In this document: one piece after another, positions 47,313-63,948 of the stretch | How positions within the stretch are numbered: position 1 is the stretch's first letter | How the letters are laid out: each line of letters begins with the position of its first letter | Source: Liolophura sinensis | Lineage: Eukaryota; Mollusca; Polyplacophora; Chitonida; Chitonidae | Direction: 5' to 3' | Length of the DNA: 64,000 nucleotides | Assembly (NCBI RefSeq): GCF_032854445.1 | Contig: NC_088300.1 | Span: forward strand, 63,834,984-63,898,983 | Translations under genes and position numbers: made by a program | The notes under the pieces: generated by a model | Told to the model about the DNA's origin: nothing | Databases searched by the model: none | What the model saw: the letters and a program-made list of their open reading frames with translations, nothing else

Positions 47313-50300
47313 TCACATGCAAACAGTTACATTTGCATCAGGTATAACCACAAAACCAAACGTCAAGGCTTCCATGTGTACAGGATTTCCAGCAGGCCAC
47401 GTCTGAGGCTCTAACCTGGGTAGTTCACTGTCACTGAGCATCTCCAGTACCTGTCCATTCAGTCTCACGTTTCTAAAATACAAGATAATTATCATAGAAA
47501 CAGATTTATAACAGTTCACATGGGCAACGGGACTGGAGCGGTAATTCTCCATGACTCACTCAATGATCTTTAGTATATCTCCAGTACCAATCTAACACTT
47601 CTGAAATACAGAACACACCACACTACATTACAACGTCATCCTGTACAATACACTGTCCTGTCCACTTTATAAATTTATTCCAAGATACAGCGTGTTAAAG
47701 TGACATAAAACAAAATTTGAGGTTTTTCTGATAAAACTGTGTCTACACTAAAGTAACAAAACTTTCATTTCCTTGAATTTTTCACAAACCAATCATGTTG
47801 CTGCAGAGAGGTAAAAAAGTATGTGGAATTCAATTCAATTCAATTCTATACAATTATTACAGTAAATTAAAAGCAACTTTCCACCAATCAATCACCTTCT
47901 CCATTACAAGCTGTATGACTGGGTGACTAGATGGTAAAAAATTCCACGTTAATTACTGTATTTTCTACTTAATTTTATGAACTTTTACTTTTACTGAATT
48001 GCAATTATGAATTCTAAGGTGACGTTTTCCACTTTTATCTTCGCCTTAAGAATAAATTCTTTTGATGTCGAGTTTATCAATAAAGATCTATCAACTTCTT
48101 TTTTCCTTTCTTTCACTCTGAATTTGTATGACATATATTAAACCTGATTCATTTTGATCTATTTTATTTAATTGATTGTATTGCCAGAATGAAGAGTTTT
48201 TCACTCACGCGATGGCTGTCAGTTTCACGGGTAGAGAAGTGAAGTGAAGTCTGGAAAGTTACTGAAAAACTTTGCCATATGTCATGTACAGATATGCACA
48301 TCGTATTGGATATAGTACAGATATGCACATCGTATTGGATGTCGTACAGATATGCACATCGTATTAGATATCGTACAGATATGCACATCGTATTGGATAT
48401 CGTACAGATATGCACATCGTATTGGATATCGTACAGATATGCACATCATATTGGATATAGTACAGATATGCACATCATATTGGATATCGTACAGATATGC
48501 ACATCGTATTGGATATCGTACAGATATGCACATCGTATTGGATATCATACAGATATGCACATCCTACTAGATATTGTACAGATATGCACATCGTATTGGA
48601 TATCGTACAGATATGCACATCGTATTGGATATCGTACAGATATGCACATCGTATTGGATATCGTACAGATATGCACATCATATTGGATATCGTACAGATA
48701 TGCACATCCTACTGGATATCGTACAGATATGCACATCGTATTGGATATCGTACAGATATGCACATCGTATTGGATATCGTACAGATATGCACATCGTATT
48801 GGATATCGTACAGATATGCACATCGTATTGGATATCGTACAGATATGCACATCGTATTGGATATCGTACAGATATGCACATCGTATTGGATATCGTACAG
48901 ATATGCACATCGTATTGGATATCGTACAGATATGCACATCGTATTGGATATCGTACAGATATGCACATCGTATTGGATATCGTACAGATATGCACATCCT
49001 ATTGGATATCGTACAGATATGCACATCCTACTAGATATCGTACAGATATGCACATCCTATTGGATATCGTACAGATATGCACATCGTATTGGATATCGTA
49101 CAGATATGCACATCCTATTGGATATCGTACAGATATGCACATCCTACTAGATATCGTACAGATATGCACATCGTATTGGATATCGTACAGATATGCACAT
49201 CGTATTAGATATCGTACAGATATGCACATCGTATTGGATATCGTACAGATATGCACATCATATTGGATATTGTACAGATATGCACATCCTACTAGATATC
49301 GTAGAGATATGCACATCGTATTGGATATCGTACAGATATGCACATCATATTGGATATCGTACAGATATGCACATCATATTGGACATCGTACAGATATGCA
49401 CATCGTATTGGTAAAAGTTCAGTGACATTCAGTGCCTTCATACAATCTGCAAATGGCGTCACAACTGTCATCTACCTCTTTTAGAAATTACCTCGAAAAT
49501 ATACCAGCTGCCCCGTCTGGTGTCAGCAGATACAAATGAAGGTCGTACTTCTGGAACTGGGGGAGCTTGACCTCCACATCTGTCTTGTACAAATTCAGAA
49601 TGTACAGAGTTACTGCCCCTGGTTGGTACTGGGATCTGAAAAATAGAAAAAAAATGACTAAAGTGGAATCAGGAAACAAAATACACTCTCTGAAACTTTC
49701 TCTTAACAAAAAAGAAACAAAGTCACTTCTGTGAAGTGCAGAAAATGTCTTCATCTGAGCTTTGTTTTATAGCCTAGACACATGATGTGAAAGGACGTTT
49801 CATAAAGTCACATAATAATTGTTTGGCATCCGTCATTTCACAAACATGTGTACCACTAATGAAGGTCCAAAACTGGGACCTGTGATATCAATGAAGGTTT
49901 ATATGAACCCACTCACAAAGATATCGTCTACACCTCATACAGTGATCCTTCTGACACACCTTACCTGCTCTGGCTACAGGCACAATGAGCATACACCCTG
50001 ACCCACCGTGACGAGTTGCTAGTGGCAACCTGAAGAACTCGTTGACCCACAAGCCTCTTGTAAAGTAACATCAGCCAGTAATCCTGTGAACAAAGTCTGG
50101 AAAATAACAAATGTATTTTGCCCTTACCCCTAACTTATTAAGAGAGTTGACTATTAGTATTAGGAACAAAATAAATCTGAAGTCATCAAGACAGAAATCA
50201 TGACCATGCTGAGCAGAACCTTTTGATATTCCCTAATGTTTCAACTGATGTTCACTCCAGATCTTATAGCAGCATCCGTGCTACAAACTGGAGATATTCC

Positions 50301-53193
50301 CTAATGTTTTATCTGATGTTCACTCCAGATCTTATAGCAGCATCCGTGCTACAAACTGGAGATATTCCCTAATGTTTTATCTGATGTTCACTCCAGATCT
50401 TATAGCAGCATCCGTGCTACAAACTGGAGATATTCCCTAATGTTTTATCTGATGTTCACTCCAGATCTTATAGCAGCATCCGTGCTACAAACTGGAGATA
50501 TTCCCTAATGTTTTATCTGATGTTCACTCCAGATCTTATAGCAGCATCCGTGCTACAAACTGGAGATATTCCCTAATGTTTTATCTGATGTTCACTCCAG
50601 ATCTTATAGCAGCATCCGTGCTACAAACTGGAGATATTCCCTAATGTTTTATCTGATGTTCACTCCAGATCTTACAGCAGCATCCGTGCTACAAACTGGA
50701 GATATTCCCTAATGTTTTATCTGATGTTCACTCCAGATCTTACAGCAGCATCCGTGCTACAAACTGGAGATATTCCCTAATGTTTTATCTGATGTTCACT
50801 CCAGATCTTACAGCAGCATCCGTGCTACAAACTGGAGATATTCCCTAATGTTTTATCTGATGTTCACTCCAGATCTTATAGCAGCATCCGTGCTACAAAC
50901 TGGAGATATTCCCTAATGTTTTATCTGATGTTCACTCCAGATCTTACAGCAGCATCCGTGCTACAAACTGGAGATATTCCCTAATGTTTTATCTGATGTT
51001 CACTCCAGATCTTATAGCAGCATCCGTGCTACAAACTGGAGATATTCCCTAATGTTTTATCTGATGTTCACTTCAGATCTTATAGCAGCATCCGTGCTAC
51101 AAACTGGAGATATTCCCTAATGTTTTATCTGATGTTCACTCCAGATCTTACAGCAGCATCCGTGCTACAAACTGGAGATATTCCCTAATGTTTTATCTGA
51201 TGTTCACTCCAGATCTTATAGCAGCATCCGTGCTACAAACTGGAGATATTCCCTAATGTTTTATCTGATGTTCACTCCAGATCTTATAGCAGCATCCATG
51301 ATACAAACTGGAGATATTCCCTAATGTTTTATCTGATGTTCACTCCAGATGATGTAGCAGCATCCGTACTAGAAATCGGATTTGAACACACCACATCCTC
51401 AATGGTCAAGGGCCTGACCATCTTGAACCATCTAAGGCCCCTCACAGAACCCCACAGTGTCAAAAAGTTACCTACAGTTGTACTGGAGATCAGACTACTT
51501 ACTGGGAATGGTGTATAGTCCAAACGGTCTATCACTGCATAGTTGCCCTTGTAGAAAGACTGTCTGATTACCACATCTACCCTATTCACTGCTGATAATC
51601 CCATCCTGTCTAACCACCTGTAAACAGGAATTCAAATGAAAATTTATCTTGAAAATCTAAAATTTTCAAGATAAAAATAAAAAAAAAATATAACTGATTT
51701 ATTTATTTGATTGATCTTTTACGCCATACTCAACAATATTTTTTTCACTTATACAATGGCAGCCAGCATTATGGTGGGAGGAAACCAACAGGTTGCTGGC
51801 AGACCTATCCACGTACGGCCGGAGATGAAGCCAGCATGAGTTGGACTTCAACTCTCAGCAACCACATTGGTGAGAGGCTCCCGGCTCAATACGCTGCATT
51901 AGCGCACTAACCGAGCCACGGAGGCCTCTCCTACATAATTGTGTCTCATTTAGTTATCTGTGCATTATCTCACACATTTTTTTTAAAATATTTTTCACAG
52001 ATTTCACCCGTCACCTGATCAGCTGCGAGTGGGACACTTTAGCAAAACAAGTCAGTGTGATGAACCTTAATACACTTCAGTGGAAATACATGTATTTGTC
52101 AGTAACAAACCAACATGTTATGGAGGGATATGTCTCTTTGTTTGTTTTTTTGTTTATTTACTTGATTATTGCTGATGAACTTCCCCACATGTCAAGCAGA
52201 CATGTCCCATGCTCAGCTTACTTACGTGAAGCCAGCTATGTATCTGTCTGAAATGCAAGGGGCTCCACTGCCAGATGACGACCCCGCCTCCCCAAGCCAT
52301 AGACGTTTGCCACCAGGTGAGGTGGAGTTGATGATGGACTGAGCCAGAGTTATCTGCCCCTGCAGGCTGTCCAGTATTGTAGGATCTACATAGTCCTCAG
52401 CCGTGGCTGTCTGGCTCCTCACATAGTAACTTGCAACAAAAATGTTTTTTTCTAATTATTCCTTTGATTGGTATTTAACAGTCAAGAATTTTTAACTTCC
52501 ATGATAGTGATCAGGTTTATGGCTTGAGAAGTGCCCGGAAATCCACAACCATTTGAAGATTCCTGCCAGACCTTCCCATGTACTGCTCGACAGAAGGCCA
52601 GCATGAGCTGGACTTAAAATTCACAGTGACCATATTGGCTCCTGGGTCATGAAGTTGGTAGTTTAAAATCCGCACTGGGCCAGCATATTTTCAATACCAG
52701 ATTCTAAAGCATCTGCTTCAGGAGGCAGTTGATCCAGGGTCAATCCTGGGTCCGCTCACACCAAAGACCTTAAAACAGGAAGTTATAACTTTTTCGCTTG
52801 GCGTTCAACATGATGGGGATAGTGGAACAACTTGGTTAACCCATATCAGTACAATGGCTTGGGTGGGGCGGCTTACTTGGCTTCGGTAAGGCATCTCAGT
52901 GAAGCTGCACTAGATAAAATAGTGGTGGAAATCTGTCCTGCAACAAGGGGGCACATTACACGCACTCTAAGGACTTCTTCATAGTCATATTACTGAAAAA
53001 TTGTACTACATTAAACCCCACGCACTCACTGACCCACTCACTCGCTCAATACTAGGTTCTAAGTTATATAAAGTTTTAGCCAATGTGGCTATTCTTTTGA
53101 ATAAAGGTGTATATAAAAAAGAAGTTTTTACTTAATCAGCTAAGTTATATCAGTAGGAAACTTAGCTCAGTAAGTAGGAGTGAAAAGGAAATT

Positions 53194-53251
<58 letters not shown>

Positions 53252-56200
53252 TACATCAAGAAGGGGTTGGGCTGGAAAGACTTACTGATGAAAGGAGATG
53301 ACATCCACAAACTGAGCACCTGTGTGGAGGAACCTGTATAACACAGGACAGTTATCACATACTGTAAATTTTTAACTTTTTCGACCTCTAAAGCAATTTT
53401 TTCAGTTGAATTTATGTGTGCACTTATTGTGAAAATGACGCTAAAATTGACCTGTTTGTGTCACCAAAGATGCACAAAATCATTTCTCTACACCCCATAG
53501 TTCACCCAGGATGTTTCACCTAATTGGTTGCAGAGGTGGTTGGAAAGGTTCAAGACTTGTATGTATGGCTCTCATCAACTTCTTAAAGAGTAATAAAAAA
53601 TAGGCTCCAATACTACAGAAAATGAAATACTGGTAAAATTCTACCAAAGATTAATCTCCACACTTTGCCTGGTTCTGACAGTTCTATTGATCTTATTTGC
53701 AAATATGGTGTTAATGTTTTTTCTTTAATTTTTTTTTCAGGAGAAAAGAGTATATTGAAAATATTTTTATGAGGTGGGTATTTGGGACAACCTTTAGGTA
53801 TGTATCGTCGTTGCATGATAATGTTCTAAAAAAAATGATGTATGTCACATAAATTTATTTGAATATAAATTTGTTGTTTATACCCAAACATAGGCATGAA
53901 TATGAATTATGATAATATTCAGAATCATATTAAAAATGTAAATATGATCATAATCCTGGATGAACACATATTAACTGAAAATATGAAATTTTAATGGAAA
54001 TATTAATATTATTTATTAAACATGTTATATCTTCATGCATAACATTATTACACAAAGACTATATGTACCAAAAGATGGTCCCAAATACCCGCCATACAAA
54101 CACTATTTCCAAGAGTCTTTTTCTCTTGAAACAAAAATCTAAAAAGAATATTGAAGACCAGATCCACAACTAACTTTTCGCACTCTTCACTTGAAGTTTG
54201 TTACTTTTATGCTTTCTCTACCCATAAACTGGGTATTTATAAGCTAGTGATGAATTACTTCTCCTTAGGCTCAGCAGTAGCCTTTGGACCATTTTCAAGG
54301 TTCTCTAAGCCAACATGCCAACATTAATGTTCAATTAGTGACTACATTAAACTTAATCCAAAGCTTAACAAAAAAAGGTTTCCTTTGACACTAACATGAC
54401 ACCTTCGTTAACACCTGTGTCACAGTTTCATCTCTCCTTTTCTCTCACTAAAGGTTGGTTTATACTGTACAGTGTGAACAGGTAAAAAATTTTTTTAGGG
54501 CGTCATGCCTCATATTAAAGTATCTTACCCTTTTAAATAATCCACACTGCTGATTGACAGCCTGTTTGCATACTCTGTTTTGATTGGTCTTGTCACATCT
54601 GGGCCAATCAGAAGACTGCTTTTATAAGAAGGTATGGTTTGCATAAGTGTTCGCAGAATACCAAAATCTCGCCCTGCTTGCCTAGGGTTCACAGTGGTGT
54701 TAAATTCGTGCTGGAACAGATCAGGCTCTGGGACAATTAGAGGAAAATAAACACAGAATTAATTAAAGGCCATTTTATCTGAATTTTTTTCGATTCGATT
54801 CGATTCTGAGTTGAACTTTATAAATTTGAGATTTCCTTCTATCTATGTCATCTTTGTAAGAGATTCTTCTGAAGTTCACCAAGGCAATCTGTACTTATGC
54901 ACATAAATGAAATACCCAAACATTAAATACTGAGATTGTGGAGAAAAAAATTACTGGCATGATATGTCAAAGTTCCATATGGTAACTCTTATCATTTGAA
55001 GAAAAAAAAATGAAGAAATAAGAGTAACTTCAACAGTCCTCAGTTATCTTTACACGCAGCCATTTTGAAGTTTTGACATCTTTCACTTCAACCCTGGTAC
55101 TTGTTTACATGTATGTTAACATTTATGTCCAACTTAAAGTTATTCTGAATGCACTGGCAGGGAAACGGTTAAAAGATCAAGTTACATTTCTAAGGTAAAC
55201 GACCAAAAATTTCGCCCATGGCTAAGTCACACATTTTGCCTGAATCTTAGAGATTTGTGGATCTTAGAAAGGTATTTTGAGGTTTTGTTGATAAGATGAT
55301 GCATGTAGGTTACTAGAAATACTAATATTTCTTTACCTCTAAAAAGTCAATTTTTGGGGTGAAATTTTACGTCATTAACCATAACCACCCATCTACCTAT
55401 TCACATATCCTACCATTTCCCAACTCCAAATGCATTTGATATCCTTTCTGGTCGGAGTATTTCATCAGTGCCTCAGCATTAGACGGATCCCACGAGGAGC
55501 CATTTCGTAACAACAGGTTCAGTCCAAACACAAGGTGCCAACCAACATCAGACACAAATTTGTTGATCTGATCCCATTCTGAAAGTGAAGTCACATGAGA
55601 AACAGATCATGCCTACTGACCAATTTCCCTGAGGTTCAATTTTATGCAGTGACAAACCACTCTGAAAATGGTGGCTCTCATAACTTTCAAACACTTGGAA
55701 TGTGATGAAGTTTTACTGATCTGTAATGCTCGTGTTTTGCTATTTTGGGGTGGGGGTGGTTTACTGTTTTTTTTATTTTTCGAATAATATCACCATTGCT
55801 TTATCCCAGAAAATTTTAATTATTGCTATAAGCAGATGTAGTCCGTGTTGCTTTTTGTTTTTCTTTAAAGTTAATTTAATTCTTGAAACATGTGTGACAA
55901 TGGAGAAAGCTGAAAACAAAATGTTTAAGCACATTATTCATGGAAATTTCTATAATATTTTTGGGTCAAAATTCAGCATACATGTATCAAAACTAGTTAT
56001 AGAATGCAACATTTTATCTGTTGTCTTGTACTTCTTTGAAAAGAGCATGCTGTTTACATCAATAGACATAATGTGTTAACAGATGTGAACAGGTGATAAA
56101 ATCTTCGAAAAAAAATTAACATATCAACCCGAGTGACATGATTTGAAACCATTAAGTCAGTGGGTTATGGTGCCCAGGCAGACATTCAATCAGCAGAGTT

Positions 56201-59200
56201 TAGGTGTCTGTAAATGTGCATAACAGTCCATACCTGTGACAGTGAAGCTACCAGATTCTGTACAGCCATGTCCTGTCCACTTTAGGCCACTTACCTGTCG
56301 CAGTCAAGCTACCAGATTGTCTACAGCCATGTCCTGTCTGCTTCAGGCCACTTACCTGACGCAGTGAAGCTACCCGATTGTCTACAGTCATGTCCTGTCC
56401 GCTTCAGGCCACTTACCTGTAGCAGTCAAGCTACCTGATTGTCTACAACCATGTCCTGTCTACTTCAGGCCACTTACCTGTCGCAGTCAAGCTACCAGAT
56501 TGTCTACAGCCATGTCCTGTCCGCTTCAGGCCACTTACCTGTAGCAGTGAAGCTACCCGATTGTCTACAGCCATGTCCTGTCCGCTTCAGGCCACTTACC
56601 TGACGCAGTGAAGCTACCAGATTGTCTACCACCATGTCCTGTCTGCTTCAGGCCACTTAACTGTTCCGGTCAAGGTATTAAATTGTCTACAGCCATTTCC
56701 TGTCCGCTTCAGGCCACATTACCTGTAACAGTGAAGCTACCAGATTGTCTACAGCCACGTCCTGTCCACTTCAGGCCACTTACCTGTAGCAGTGAAGCTA
56801 CCCGATTGTCTACAGCCATGTCCTGTCCGCTTCAGGCCACTTACCTGACGCAGTGAAGATACCAGATTGTCTACCGCCATGTCCGGTCTGCTTCAGGCCA
56901 CTTAACTGTAGCAGTGAAGCTACCCGATTGTCTACAGCCATGTCCTGTCCGCTTCAGGCCACTTACCTGTAGCAGTGAAGCTACCAGATTGTCTACAGCC
57001 ATGTCCTGTCCGCTTCAGGCCACTTACCTGACGTAGTGAAGCTACCAGATTGTCTACCGCCATGTCCGGTCTGCTTCAGGCCACTTAACTGTAGCAGTAA
57101 AGCTACCAGATTGTTTACAGCCATGTCCTGTCTGCCTCAGGCCACTCACCTGTCACAGTCAATTAAGCTACCAGATTGTCTGGAGTCATGCCCTACACGC
57201 TTCAGGCCTCTTACCTGTCGCACTGAAGCGACCAGATTGTCTAGAGCCAAGTCCTGTCCGCTTCAGGCCATTTCCAAACACAAGCCTATCTTCATCTGTA
57301 CCTCCAAATCTTACATAACATGGTCCCAGTGCCTTGGCCAGAGTGAGCAGCTTAATAGAGCTGTAGTGTGTGACCAGAAAAATAAAAACTTAAATACACA
57401 TACTTTAATCAACCAGTTATGATAATGATCTAACCTAGACTTATATTTATTTATTTATTTATTTGATTGGTGCAGGAATATTTCACTTATATTACGGTGG
57501 CCAGCATCATGGTGTGAGGAAACCGGGCAGAGCCCGGGGGAAACCCACGACCATCCGCAGGTTGCTGCAAGACCTTCCCACTTACGGCTGGAGAGGAAGC
57601 AGTCTTATATTACAGACATGAAAATACTTACATGTAATAAGGATGCAAACACCCTGATTCTCCAACTTTGCACATATGAAAGAGCAACTTTCAGTACTAT
57701 TTATGCACATTTTTAAAAGTATAATTTTATGAGTCGACTCAGAAAATTGCTTTCAGAATATGCTTGAATAAACACCCTGTAAACATGCGAAAAGGTTAAA
57801 GAATTACAGTACATGTACTACTTCAACTATATATCCTTGCCACAAAATAGCTTGCAACATTGCCTATTTGATGTTAAACCATAATAATCGATTCATTCTT
57901 TCAACTATGAAATCCAAAACAGCTCAACAAACACATGCAAAATTTTTACACTAAAATTTTCTCGTGAAAAAATTATTTATTTTCAATATAGAGGTCAGAA
58001 CCTTGGACATGTATTTATAAAAATCTAATTACAAATTTGATTAAAATGACACATGAACAGTTCCGAGCTACTAGAAGATCATGCTGCATACAGTACTACA
58101 GCTGATATACATCTAGAACAGCTAGAAAGCCTTATGTAAATGTATATCACTGTTGCTGTCGTAAATCAGCTTTGCAGATTTGCAGATACTGTGCACAAAA
58201 AATAGCATGCACTCACAAACTTAAATTTATCTATAATTTATAAAGCCAATAATTAAGTTTTTTGAGCTTGTTTTCTATCAAAATAAAAGTGAAAACAATG
58301 TACATCAATCTTCATGCCCATAAGCATGTACCTCGGCTGTACCTCAGATACACCTCCTCAGCTGTACCTCAGGCGTCATATTTTTTACCGAAAATTTACA
58401 GACTACCAGTACACCTCCAGTGTGGTGTACTATAGGTACTAATCTGCATAACTGGCAGTACCTCAGATACACCTTCAACACACCTCACATACACCTCAAG
58501 CATACCTGAGACACACCTCAGTTCTGATATGCTACACCCCAATTGTACACCTCAGATGTACCTCAAGTATATCTCGATCCAGTACAACTTATAAGGGTAA
58601 GGGAGTGCATCTCGATGGATTCAGTTTCATCAATTAATGTCATACTTTTAAATATCCCACATCAAGAAATGAGATGAAGAGGGGCTATGAGGTGTATACA
58701 AAAGTGTGCTGTCTCCACTAAAATATTAAGCCAAAGATACCAGACATGATGCTCTCGCCAGTCACATGATACCGACACTGGGTCAACCAGTCCTGCTTCC
58801 TTGCTCTAACCTCTTAGCGCTGATTGAGCTCCAAGTCAGGCAGCAACAAGTACCATTTTTAAAATCTTCGGAGTGACTCGACCGGGGTTTGATCCCAGAT
58901 CCGATGAACTAATACACAAATATGTATGTTATAAGTTTATTTGTATTTTGACATATCTGTAGATCACCAGTATATTACCGGTACTATAGTACCTTGTGTT
59001 AAAATATTGCAGTTTCTCCAAAATAAGAGATGCATCTATGCCAACGCTTGCATAACGCGTATCTGTAACGTGAAGTATTGTTTCCTTCCTGACAAAAACA
59101 GACACACTGACGTTGTCATCATTTACAACTGTACTTCTCTTATAATCGACACTTTTGCTTCTCAACTTAATTGGAAATGATCGGTACGTTTCAAATTCTG

Positions 59201-59768: not shown

Positions 59769-62700
59769 ATGATGCTGTCCTGGCGGTGTGATAATGCTGT
59801 TCATGCTTCATGTTGCCTACGGGTGACCCTATGTTTAGCCGTTCTTTTATTTTTCGTTATTATTCTGACGACCTTACAGAACTGTTTTGTGATAGATGCC
59901 GGAACACTGTCGGTATCTGCTACCGTAAACAAGAAAAGAGTCCTCCACGTCATCGACGACCGATACGCCAGCGTCGGCATCGACGCATCCCTCGTTCAAG
60001 AGAAATTTAAGAACTTTGACACGAGGTACAGTCTACACCACTGTTTATTGAAATAATAATTATTGTATTTAGAAATTCATAAAAGTCCGAATCTGTTACC
60101 AGGCTAGTCTAAAAAAAACTAGTACCAGTACATTTATTTATTTGTTTATTTATTTGATTGTAGTTTTATGCCGTACGCAAGAATATTTCACTTATACGAC
60201 GGCAGGTTGCTGACAGGCCTTCCCACATACAGACGGAGAGGAAGCCAGCCTGACACTGGTACATGAATAAGTTCTTGTTACATTTCACTTCTTTTTCTCC
60301 ACATATATTCAATTTCACAACAAACAGGGGCCTCCGTGGCTCAGTCGGTTAGCGCGCTAGCACAGCGTAATGACCCAGGAGCCTCTCACCAATGCGGTCG
60401 CTGTGAGTTCAAGTCCAGCTCATGCTGGCTTTCTCTGCGGCCGTAAGTGGGAAGGTCTTCCAGCAACCTGCGGATGGTCGTGGGTTTCCCCCGGGCTGTG
60501 CCCGGTTTCCACCCACCATATAATGCTGGCCGCCGTCGTATAAGTGAAATATTCTTGAGTACGGCGTAAAACACCAATCAAAAAAAAAAAAAAATTTCAC
60601 AACAAGGCTCAGACACAAAGCTACAGCTGTTATAACTCCCTATGCCAGGCAAATAATTCATTGCACATGTACATTGCAAGAACAAATTAGTTAGCCTAGC
60701 CTATGTATGTCCAAGGTGTTTTGTTTTCAAAATATCTTACTATTTATTCATAGTTTCTTGTATTGAGGCTCTTTGTAAGGAGAAGGAGGAGATAAATAAT
60801 GAACTTTGAGATGAACGGAAGAAATGCTGATTTTTGCACATTTCTAAAGTTTTATGTACTGTAGGGCTCTGAAAGTATCATATTTGAAGATTAGACAGCT
60901 TGTGTGTCTAAGCAATGGGAAGTTTTGACCTCTAACTCTTATGTCGTTAAATTTAAAAACAATCCAACTGTATCATGTGAATTGGGAAAAGTGTTAGGGA
61001 ACTTACAGCCAATTCATGACATCAATTTACCGATCAACTTGTCTCACTCGGTTTCAGGGGCACAAATGACACCTCTCAATTGGAACTTCTTAAGTTTTAT
61101 CAAATGTTCTGCTCTTAAATCTTCTCCATCGTTCATCTACTCTAAACTACTTTTTGTGAAACTTTTTCAGATGTCCATCTAAGGGTATGGTAAATGTATT
61201 CAAACATAGTTGCCTAACTTTTTTGACAGGTCACACGATACAATTTTTTTTTTACCTTTAAAGGAGAAGAAACCTTTAAAGGAGAAGAAAATTTAAATAT
61301 CAATCAAATACCATTGAAAAGAGTATGCATTTCCTCGCAGGTGCATGCCAAAAAAAGAAAATTCTAATATGTACCTCAAGTTGATATATTATAAATTAAG
61401 TCAGCGTCAAAATCCGCTGTGGGCAACTCCATTTTGCCTAAGAACTAGTCCTGAAGTCTTCTGTGTTAGGAGGAGAATTGCCATTGGAAACCACCAAAGT
61501 GCAGTTCGTACATTTCCGGAAGAACTCCTCTTCCCAGAAGGTAGTTGACAGTATAGGTCGTTTTCCATTTGACGATCGGGAAACCGGAATGTTGGACATA
61601 GGTTACGAGTTTACACAAACAAACCGGCAGTTTTAACGACTCTCATTGGCTGAGAGGCAACACACCCCCAGCATAAATTACAAGGTGTTAAAGATGTAGG
61701 ATGCAATGGACCCAGAGATTTATGCCAGCTTTGCCTTTTTCAGGCTTTCCGTGTATGGCAAGGAAAAATTGCAAAATAATGCAACAGGCACCACCAGATA
61801 TCAAAAAAAATGTGCTGTTTTCAGCCTATAGTGTCATGTTTTTAAGTTTTCTTCTCCTTTAACAATCAGAAAGTTTAAACTCCTATATTGAAAGACAAAC
61901 ATATTAACAGCAACACCATGATCCCTCCCTACAATTTATATCATGGTACATAGGATAAGTGATACCAATACAATTCATATTGAAAGCTTTTGTCACTGTT
62001 AATACAGAAACCTACTATAGATAGTGCCTTTAACACTGCATGTTCTCAGAAATCTGACAGTTTTTGAGCTTGCGAAAGATTTCACGTAAAGTAAGATAAA
62101 TTTTTTGTCATCGTACTACATGTATTGATCGCCATGATATGGCTGAAAAATTGCCGATGTGGCCTAAAGCCATAGTCATTCATTCATACATGTATTGGTT
62201 TCTGTTGCTTTCAGTTCAGTAAAGTTGCTGACATTGTCACAGTCTTTAGGTCCATGTTATGTGAGGGTTGGAGGAACAGCTGAGGATTTACTGGTATTTG
62301 ATGACAAGCTACTTGACAAAGATTCCCCATTCAGAAAGCCTCAGCATGTTTTTGTAATGACAGGTGTGTGAATTTCATATTTAGACATCAGAGCCCAGTT
62401 GTTCAAAACTGTTTTAAGACTAAGTACTAAATTTAAGTTTAAGCCAAGCATTCAGGTTTGTACATAGCCCAAAAATAATTATGTAAGGGTATATTAAATA
62501 TGAACTAAATCTACTGCTCTTAAACTTTGACTTTGGACATCTGCATTGGCTGCTGAATTTGGCTGAAATATGACTTCATACTGGTATTAGCTAATACACT
62601 TTCGAACAGCTGGGCCCAGTATATTAAGACATTTCCATGTTCAAGTACTGTCTGGTTTATTCAAAGAATGAATATGTATATCAATGCTGCCCTACATGTA

Positions 62701-63948
62701 TTTATATTGGACATTAATTCATGTATGAATTTGAGGCCTTCATTAGTTCATGCAAGTGTAGCACCAATAACTAAAGTCTGTTAGTATGCTGTGGAATTTT
62801 CTGCAGTTTTGAAAATTTGTAATGTTTGTGAAACATAGCATCTAAGGTCACCCTAATAAAATTGTGAATGTGATGTCATACTTTTGGGATGTGGTTTAGT
62901 TGCAGACTGGGACAAAATCAACAAATTTGTGTCTGATGTTGGTTGGCACCTTGTGTTTGGACTGAACCTGTTGTTACGAAATGGCTCCTCATGGGATCCG
63001 TCTAATGCTGAGGCACTGATGAAATACTCTGACCAGAAAGGATATCAAATGCATTTGGAGTTGGGAAATGGTAGGAAATCTTAGATGCCATTAATGTTTT
63101 TTAGGCCAAAAGTTTTTGCTTAAAATATTGTGTTCACAGTGCTGTATGTGATGCTGAGTTTTTACCTTGTAAGACTTGAAGTCTTGATTAATAATTAATA
63201 ATAGTCTTATTTGTCTTCTTTTTTTTTTTTTTTAATTTTATGGTCTTATTTTCAGAACCCAATTCATTTAAACATGTCTTTCAAAAGACTGTGGATCCAA
63301 GCCAATCAGCAAAAGACTTCCATGTGCTTAGAAATTTGATGCAAACATTTTCAACTTTTAAGTCAAGCCTTCTGATTGGTCCAGACGTGACACGGCCAAT
63401 AAAAACAAGCGATGAGGATGAACTGACTACCAGCAGTAAGGATTACCTAAGACGGTTAGAGACAGTTAATAGGTCTTTTATCTGTTGGGGGTTATTGAGG
63501 TTAGTTTGCATCACAGTTAAACATGGCCGGCATTGTGAAGTTACAAGAAGACTACCTTACAGAAAAAGATTATGTATGCATGAAGTTAGCACCAGGATGA
63601 AGACCATTGAAAATTGCATCTGAATACTTTAATTCTATTCAGTCATTTTCTTTTTTTTCTTTTTGTGTTGAAAATGTAGTTGAATGTTTGAATGGTAACG
63701 TGAACCATATTGACAACGTATATCACCTATAGTATCACCAATAAAAAGACTATTTGAATGAGGTAAAATACCTGTTTTAAGACTAGACCTGTCATTGGCG
63801 ATATACCAAGATATCAATATGGCCTATAAAACCCATCCCACAACTTTCATATTTATGCTGTATTTGAATTTAATAGTAATGCATTTGTGTGTCTCTACAG
63901 ATTCCTGAAGACAGGCAGCCCTTACGTGGATGTTGTAACATTTCATCA
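59769..63948 (+). CDS. HPSE: Second heparanase, 5' part (runs off right edge)
   Basis: Five exons join in phase: 59769-60025, 62215-62363, 62906-63070, 63256-63454 and 63901-63948; the rest lies outside the window. A signal anchor near the N-terminus reads VTLCLAVLLFFVIILTTLQN. Core blocks are RYASVGIDASLVQEKF, LGPCYVRVGGTAEDLLVF, FGLNLLLRNGSSWDPSNAEA, LELGNEPNSF with the acid/base Glu, IGPDVTRPIKT and FLKTGSPYVDVVTFH. The nucleophile exon is not in view. Exon lengths 3, 4 and 5 (165, 199, 48) equal those of the divergent minus-strand copy, and intron phases match, so the pair arose by inverted duplication. The exon 4 donor is weak (GTTAGA). As in the copy, no human-type linker segment is present. 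Confidence 0.88.
60132..60250 (-). repeat. SINE family A, partial, minus strand
   Basis: Reads TTTATTTATTTGATTGTAGT, ATGCCGTACGCAAGAATATT, TCACTTATACGACGGCAGGT and GAAGCCAGCC; an inner segment is deleted. It lies within 80 bp of the full-length plus copy, in opposite orientation. Confidence 0.85.
60327..60594 (+). mobile_element. Full-length tRNA-derived SINE (family A) with target-site duplication
   Basis: The head GGCCTCCGTGGCTCAGTCGG matches a tRNA A box (TGGCTCAGTCGG), and GAGTTCAAGTCC fits a B box. The body (GGGAAGGTCTTCCAGCAACC, TGCGGATGGTCGTGGGTTTC) ends in GTACGGCGTAAAACACCAAT and a poly-A run. The 13-bp AATTTCACAACAA occurs on both sides (60311-60323 and 60593-60605), the target duplication left by retroposition. 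This is the reference copy for the other family A pieces and one of the youngest. It lies in intron 1 of the second heparanase gene. Confidence 0.93.
62128..62190 (+). repeat. Short interspersed repeat, type B
   Basis: CGCCATGATATGGCTGAAAA, ATTGCCGATGTGGCCTAAAG and a CATTCATTCATACA tail, 25 bp upstream of exon 2 of the second heparanase gene. Confidence 0.75.

Follow-up and report, generated by a model that had tools for sequence, protein, structure and literature searches.

A minisatellite repeating an exon end and its 5' splice site in a heparanase gene of the chiton Liolophura sinensis, with further arrays of this kind in the same genome

In heparanase A, one of two neighbouring heparanase genes of the chiton L. 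sinensis, the end of exon 2 and its donor site have been amplified into a minisatellite of 17 tandem units within the 64,000-nucleotide window (the whole stretch of DNA analysed here). We read this array as a splice-junction minisatellite that is almost neutral and is removed with the intron, and we put the probability of this reading at about two in three. Taken by itself, the heparanase A array adds one more animal case of an arrangement on record in the human CBS gene; the wider set matters more, since one genome carries several such arrays where exons of identifiable conserved genes end. The chiton was first reported as Liolophura japonica, and its name was later corrected to L. sinensis (PMC12441733).

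A full parse of the array along the minus strand, from 57269 to 56228, yields the 17 units, and TRF run on the window reports 56231-57270 with a period of 61, 17.0 copies and 86% matches, which bears out the 17-copy, ~61-bp minisatellite that an earlier sequence-only reading had placed in a heparanase intron. The head-to-tail arrangement and the unit length, within about 10-100 bp, are those by which minisatellites are defined. Unit 1 measures 65 bp, unit 8 measures 62 bp and all others 61 bp, the end of unit 16 having been set by us at 61 bp. Each unit joins 55 nt of exon end to 6 nt of intron (BLAST gives the exonic part as 51-59 nt), a longer exonic share than the last 43 bases of the exon that had first been proposed. 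Unit 0 consists of the final 55 nt of exon 2 followed by GTAAGA, and units 1-16 are intronic. Chance clustering of donor words was rejected on grounds of density: the genome searched (609,464,459 bases, 632 contigs) holds 9,807 copies of CAGGTAAGT on both strands of its 609 Mb, or ~0.016 per kb, as against ten within ~1 kb of array, these being the only ten in the 64-kb window.

Table 1. Features of the heparanase A array, of its two host paralogues and of other donor arrays next to recognised exons
Feature	Position	Strand	Basis or remark
Minisatellite, 17 x ~61 bp (55 nt exonic + 6 nt donor)	56228..57269	-	TRF and unit parsing; GT kept in 14/17
First donor GTAAGA (CAG/GTAAGA, 8/9 to U1), ancestral place, sole frame-keeping donor	57209..57214	-	Place and phase as for the one donor of B exon 2
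Unit 1 (65 bp), least like the consensus (78%), carries in-frame stop GCA TGA	57144..57208	-	Unit alignment
Heparanase A exon 2 (146 nt, phase 1 at its end), of which the final 55 nt form unit 0	57215..57360	-	Open frame SIKLLTLAKALGPCYVRFGGTDEDRLVFGNGLKRTGLGSRQSGRFSAT; partial alignment to solved heparanase chains
Heparanase A exon 3, acceptor TTTCAG at 55584-55579, then donor GTAGGA	55414..55578	-	PF03662 match
Later heparanase A exon (...DYTPFP), single donor GTAAGT	51503..51617	-	Unexpanded here; 74-bp donor array at this exon in B
Paralogue B exon 2, 149 nt, one donor GTGTGT, no array	62215..62363	+	Homologous to A exon 2
Paralogue B exon 3, same length as in A (165 nt)	62906..63070	+	Comparison with A; 95.6% identical over a 180-nt match
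FAA hydrolase (FAH-like)	L022, 2634-3258		Pfam, E 1e-4, just under curated cut-off
MH2/SMAD-like exon	L024, 832-1385	-	Pfam
UDPGT (UGT)	L026, L027		Pfam; neighbours, near-identical flanks
PTHB1	L029, from 3044		Pfam; short degenerate array, three donors, uncalled by TRF
NUB1	L030, 2878-3432		PDB search
b(0,+)-type transporter, SLC7-like	L032		PDB search

The host gene was identified from exon 3 of A, which scores over the PF03662 cut-off, and from the exon 2-3 peptide, which matches a solved heparanase with an E-value of 1.5e-12. Exon 3 begins at 55578 after TTTCAG, exactly where the sequence-only reading had set its acceptor. A genome search returned seven GH79-domain matches, all on contig C6, which also carries the window; one of them belongs to the neighbouring gene, paralogue B. 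Pfam applied to X-filled frames over 51400-55502 gave no match. Paralogue B lies on the plus strand, 5 kb from the array of A, and continues past the window end into a flanking segment (L053). Seven homologous stretches are open and collinear between A and B, a comparison that leaves out the first exon, most borders and the 3' end. The exon 2 donor has the same position and phase in both genes (donor 0 in A, the single donor in B), the exons being 146 and 149 nt long. Because B has a single donor at that place and phase and carries no array there, donor 0 is the ancestral exon end. Invasion of the exon by the array was considered and rejected, as exon 2 of A differs from that of B by only one codon in length. 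Human heparanase can be aligned on either side of the exon end, with a long insert separating the two matches (query residues 27 to 40; chain residues 72 to 129), so the amplified end falls in a part of the protein that varies in length.

A BLASTN comparison of A with B revealed one A exon end that matches B repeatedly. The match corresponds to a donor array in B beyond the right end of the window (L053:1617-2191), for which TRF gives 74 bp and 7.8 copies; its unit comprises about 45 nt of exon end plus the intron start, and it follows the exon ...GNYAMIDCLDYTPFP/GTAAGT. This array is independent of that in A and stands at a different exon, one that in A has a single donor. With A expanded at exon 2 and B at a later exon, each gene is the other's unexpanded control, and neighbouring paralogues with arrays at different exons make donor choice by the spliceosome testable in living animals.

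Other features of the two genes were recorded alongside the arrays. Exon 3 (55584-55405 against 62900-63079) and a late exon (47550-47291 against L053) are 93-96% identical between the inverted paralogues, whereas the remaining exon matches reach only 72-89%; gene conversion between A and B at these two exons is possible. Heparanase A also contains two further large minisatellites, at 50225-51375 (68 bp x 16.9) and 48286-49411 (29 bp x 38.8), the former beginning about 130 bp past an exon end and excluding that end. Just upstream of exon 2, at 57600-57444, there is an interspersed repeat with more copies near paralogue B, which we take to resemble the tail of a molluscan SINE.

Listed by unit, the donors of the heparanase A array are GTAAGA (unit 0), GTGAGT (1), GTAAGT (3, 4, 6, 7 and 10-15), GTAATG (8) and GTATGG (16), while units 2, 5 and 9 carry TTAAGT in place of a donor and have lost the GT. 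The parse therefore upholds the idea of a unit made of exon end and donor, and of a row of usable-looking donors; the earlier count of fourteen stands for the GT, retained in 14 of 17 units, and 12 of these 14 donors are strong. Over the nine positions of the U1 consensus, ten units reach 9/9 with CAG/GTAAGT, and the other three of the 13 later GT donors score 8/9 (one) and 7/9 (two), compared with 8/9 for donor 0. Translation of all 17 exon ends confirmed that the first donor alone keeps the reading frame, which stays open and continues into exon 3 (...RFSATEWDQINKF). Exon ends 1-16, those of the GT-less units 2, 5 and 9 being hypothetical, all translate to ...SATGKRPEACRA followed by a stop. 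That stop is shared by every later exon end: it is the GCA TGA of unit 1, the tenth codon past the normal exon end, in agreement with the stop within ten codons that had been predicted.

According to the passenger reading, a short segment across the exon end and its donor would have been duplicated in tandem, the upstream copy being kept in the exon with its donor and the extra copies falling in the intron. The intronic copies would then have grown to 16, probably via slippage or unequal exchange, and the rest of the array would be lost when the intron is spliced out. Splicing from any later donor would place the same stop codon in the message and leave the transcripts open to nonsense-mediated decay, so that mis-spliced messages are presumably degraded. 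Tolerance would follow from the ancestral donor being the first of the row and the first to be transcribed, and from its closing an exon of normal size, 146 nt; since the later donors add a stop codon, their transcripts should be of low value. Ten later donors fit U1 better than donor 0, and passive use of donor 0 is therefore not obvious; of two equal donors, competition work often favours the downstream one. Given the good U1 fit of the later sites, we infer that productive splicing, which would use donor 0, depends on where donor 0 lies, on exon definition or on the order in which the sites are transcribed. The array opens the question of whether distance, transcription order or U1 fit decides among near-identical donors of defined spacing and strength.

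Sequence variation among the units bears on whether the donors are maintained. Across units 1-16, the mean number of mismatches per column is 1.0 for GTAAGT, 0 for CAG and 1.27 for the other 52 columns, and the 9-column donor window, with a mean of 0.67, ranks 10 of 61 overlapping windows for conservation. The donor columns are thus kept above the rest of the unit as a weak tendency at most, and the invariant CAG and the rank of the donor window are, at that strength, part of the evidence against the passenger reading. The units differ among themselves, with identities to the consensus of 78-98% (78% for unit 1, 84% for unit 9, 87% for unit 16, and 84-98% over units 2-15). Decay towards the edges is not clean, because the internal unit 9 is more decayed than unit 16 at the edge. 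Next after each of the GT-less units 2, 5 and 9 comes a similar variant unit, as though a single lesion had spread blockwise. Overall, slippage or unequal exchange with no particular regard for the donors would account for the divergence of the units, a fit that falls short of proof.

The ten of 16 later donors that score 9/9 to U1, better than donor 0, and the early stop to which every later donor leads would also suit a splicing rheostat, in which decoy donors divert some of the transcripts into stop-bearing messages and the yield of productive heparanase depends on array length; the human CBS VNTR, in the available part of PMC1395315, is tabulated with raised homocysteine. We consider this unlikely, as the donors are not clearly better kept than the rest of the unit, the GT is lost in 3 of 17 units, and comparable arrays in unrelated genes speak against a heparanase-specific device. 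To judge by the title of Lievers et al. 2001, the CBS VNTR has reportedly been linked to reduced CBS activity.

Intronic U1 sites might instead help to define donor 0, which is weaker in U1 fit than ten of the copies, or suppress early polyadenylation, the topic of PMC3826338 so far as its available part extends, and would be mildly useful whichever copy binds. The excess of donor-word over acceptor-word arrays described below would suit such a benefit, but the donor columns are at most weakly inclined to be kept, and we regard the proposal as improbable. Still less can be said for a chain of mini-introns, in which each unit, running from GT to a CAG that abuts the next GT, is removed singly or a wrong choice is re-spliced from donor 0. 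CAG does close 17/17 units with GT next in 14, and introns derived from AGGT-containing tandem duplications are on record (available part of PMC4974935). However, the unit ends contain 56% pyrimidine at -20 to -5, a value close to that of background CAGs (51%, n=62; 40%, n=9) and short of the 70% seen at six real acceptors of A and B, and in 14/17 units a TAG ending 14-18 nt before the unit end intervenes between the CAG and any farther-upstream branch site; the weak pyrimidine tract and this TAG led us to reject the chain as a main reading, leaving it very improbable. An assembly artefact is the least credible explanation, since, although a single assembly stands behind the array, its HiFi reads (14X, mean 8.3 kb; 609,495,693 bp in 632 scaffolds, from the available part of PMC11068029) outspan the array, whose units have diverged from one another and whose sequence is free of N.

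The sequence-only reading had held a minisatellite that amplifies a donor site to be undescribed. This claim of novelty falls, because the kind is already known from the human CBS gene, where a 31-bp VNTR of the same anatomy, c.1444_1467+7(16_21), lies across exon 13 and intron 13, with 24 exonic and 7 intronic nt in 16-21 copies (available part of PMC2630376). In both cases the unit runs from the 3' end of an exon into the intron and so repeats the donor (24 + 7 nt in CBS, 55 + 6 in the chiton), copy numbers are comparable (16-21 and 17), and substitutions distinguish the units. The two differ in gene, animal and unit length, and the CBS VNTR is polymorphic, whereas the chiton array is known from one assembly. 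The same source, in its available part, describes CBS 844ins68, a duplicated splice junction that is spliced around to give a normal mRNA (PMC2630376); this too is a short tandem duplication of a splice junction, but with one extra copy and on the acceptor side, at the intron 7/exon 8 junction. Intron gain by tandem duplication offers another parallel, with the Rogers model, ATP2A1, potato RdRp and the 24-bp repeats of fission yeast as examples (available part of PMC4974935). There as here, tandem duplication of a segment bearing AG/GT creates new pairs of GT and AG; the chiton array, by contrast, lengthens an existing intron at its donor. A literature search, mostly without subscription papers, found no donor-site minisatellite besides that of CBS and no genome-wide class, and a repeated donor was not found in the available parts of PMC12783039, on intronic minisatellites of earthworm metallothionein, or of PMC3039753, on MSY2 upstream of DDX3Y. 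The new element is that the heparanase A array is not alone, having counterparts at paralogue B and at a number of further exon ends in this genome.

Genome-wide, three copies of CAGGTAAGT at 46-76 nt spacing occur in 370 windows, and the pattern read backwards in 148. The 100 donor-word windows listed lie on C1-C4 and on C5 as far as 11.75 Mb, a span of 189 Mb or 31% of the assembly, and resolve to 19 loci further to the heparanase A array. Over the same 189 Mb, the backwards word gives 4 loci, the acceptor word TTTYNCAGGT 12 and the second donor word AAGGTAAGT 8, the last being a weak result, with 125 windows versus 98 for its backwards control. Set against single-word counts of 9,807 (donor), 4,854 (backwards) and 22,178 (acceptor), arrays per word are commoner for the donor than for the acceptor (19 of 9,807 vs 12 of 22,178, p = 4e-4), which plain neutrality need not predict, while the donor and backwards (scrambled) words do not differ significantly (19 vs 4 loci, p = 0.08); these comparisons use one scrambled word, counts that include words inside arrays, and windows merged into loci by hand. 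The weak outcome for the second donor word, the non-significant difference from the scrambled word and the existence of acceptor arrays speak against donors having a special role.

At 7 of the 19 listed loci, a homology-supported exon end lies at the first donor or within two or three residues of it (Table 1); since L026 and L027 are neighbours with near-identical flanks, these represent six independent cases. Like A, paralogue B and the loci L022, L024, L026/L027, L029, L030 and L032 have an array at or near an exon end that repeats its donor, and the units of the other donor arrays are unrelated, ~31-74 bp long, with exonic parts of 5 to about 45 nt or more. Pfam, run on 30 ORFs representing 22 of the 23 loci retrieved (L010-L032), identified five of the 19 (L022, L024, L026, L027 and L029), and PDB searches on four loci added L030 and L032; L015 has no ORF, some second-frame ORFs were left out, and at L010 two farther-upstream ORFs were tested and the short one adjacent to the array was left out. 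For L032, the best-matching PDB chain aligns up to some 16 nt short of the exon end; this end recurs as a copy, with its donor, 25 nt downstream. The remaining 12 listed loci and four extra clusters of the donor word (L011-L014) gave no exon-end homology in these searches. Among the loci, L016, L017 and L021 are coding-like by eye only, with nothing convincing from PDB searches for L017 and L021, and an upstream ORF of L012 matches NOD2_WH (E 3.9e-8) and two weaker models and ends some 460 nt before the array. Single matches with E near 0.04 (L032, L040, L043) were treated as chance.

For the control words, a recognised exon adjoins 2 of 12 acceptor arrays, namely L037, with a HIT domain found by Pfam, and L044, recognised by comparison with L032, to whose exon its own is 64% identical; this group was searched with Pfam only, on ORFs of 9 of the 12 loci (L033 and L035 have no ORF, and L041 was left out). 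Beside scrambled-word arrays, Pfam recognised an exon at 0 of 8 loci, with ORFs from 5 of the 8 (L045 and L048 have no ORF and L046 no flank) and 4 of the 8 inside the 189-Mb span. As testing effort was unequal between the groups, these exon fractions are no fair contest.

Because the heparanase array is one among many in the genome, a mutational habit is favoured over a device specific to heparanase. More tentatively, and with the balance somewhat against it, the splice-junction minisatellites of chitons could form a genome-wide, donor-biased class at perhaps hundreds of exon ends, tolerated since the original donor lies upstream and is transcribed first, whereas amplified acceptors would put decoys before the true site. 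If so, such arrays would act as a natural mutagenesis experiment on how 5' splice sites are chosen, and array copy number could be a widespread source of expression variation.

Two acceptor-side arrays deserve mention in their own right. L037 (C1:59468191-59471177, minus strand) holds ~42 copies, estimated by span, of a 71-bp unit that combines the acceptor TTTCCAG with the start of the HIT-domain exon, and is an acceptor-side counterpart of the donor arrays. L032 and L044 lie about 20 kb apart on C5 and contain related SLC7-like exons, the former with a donor array and the latter with a diverged array on the acceptor side.
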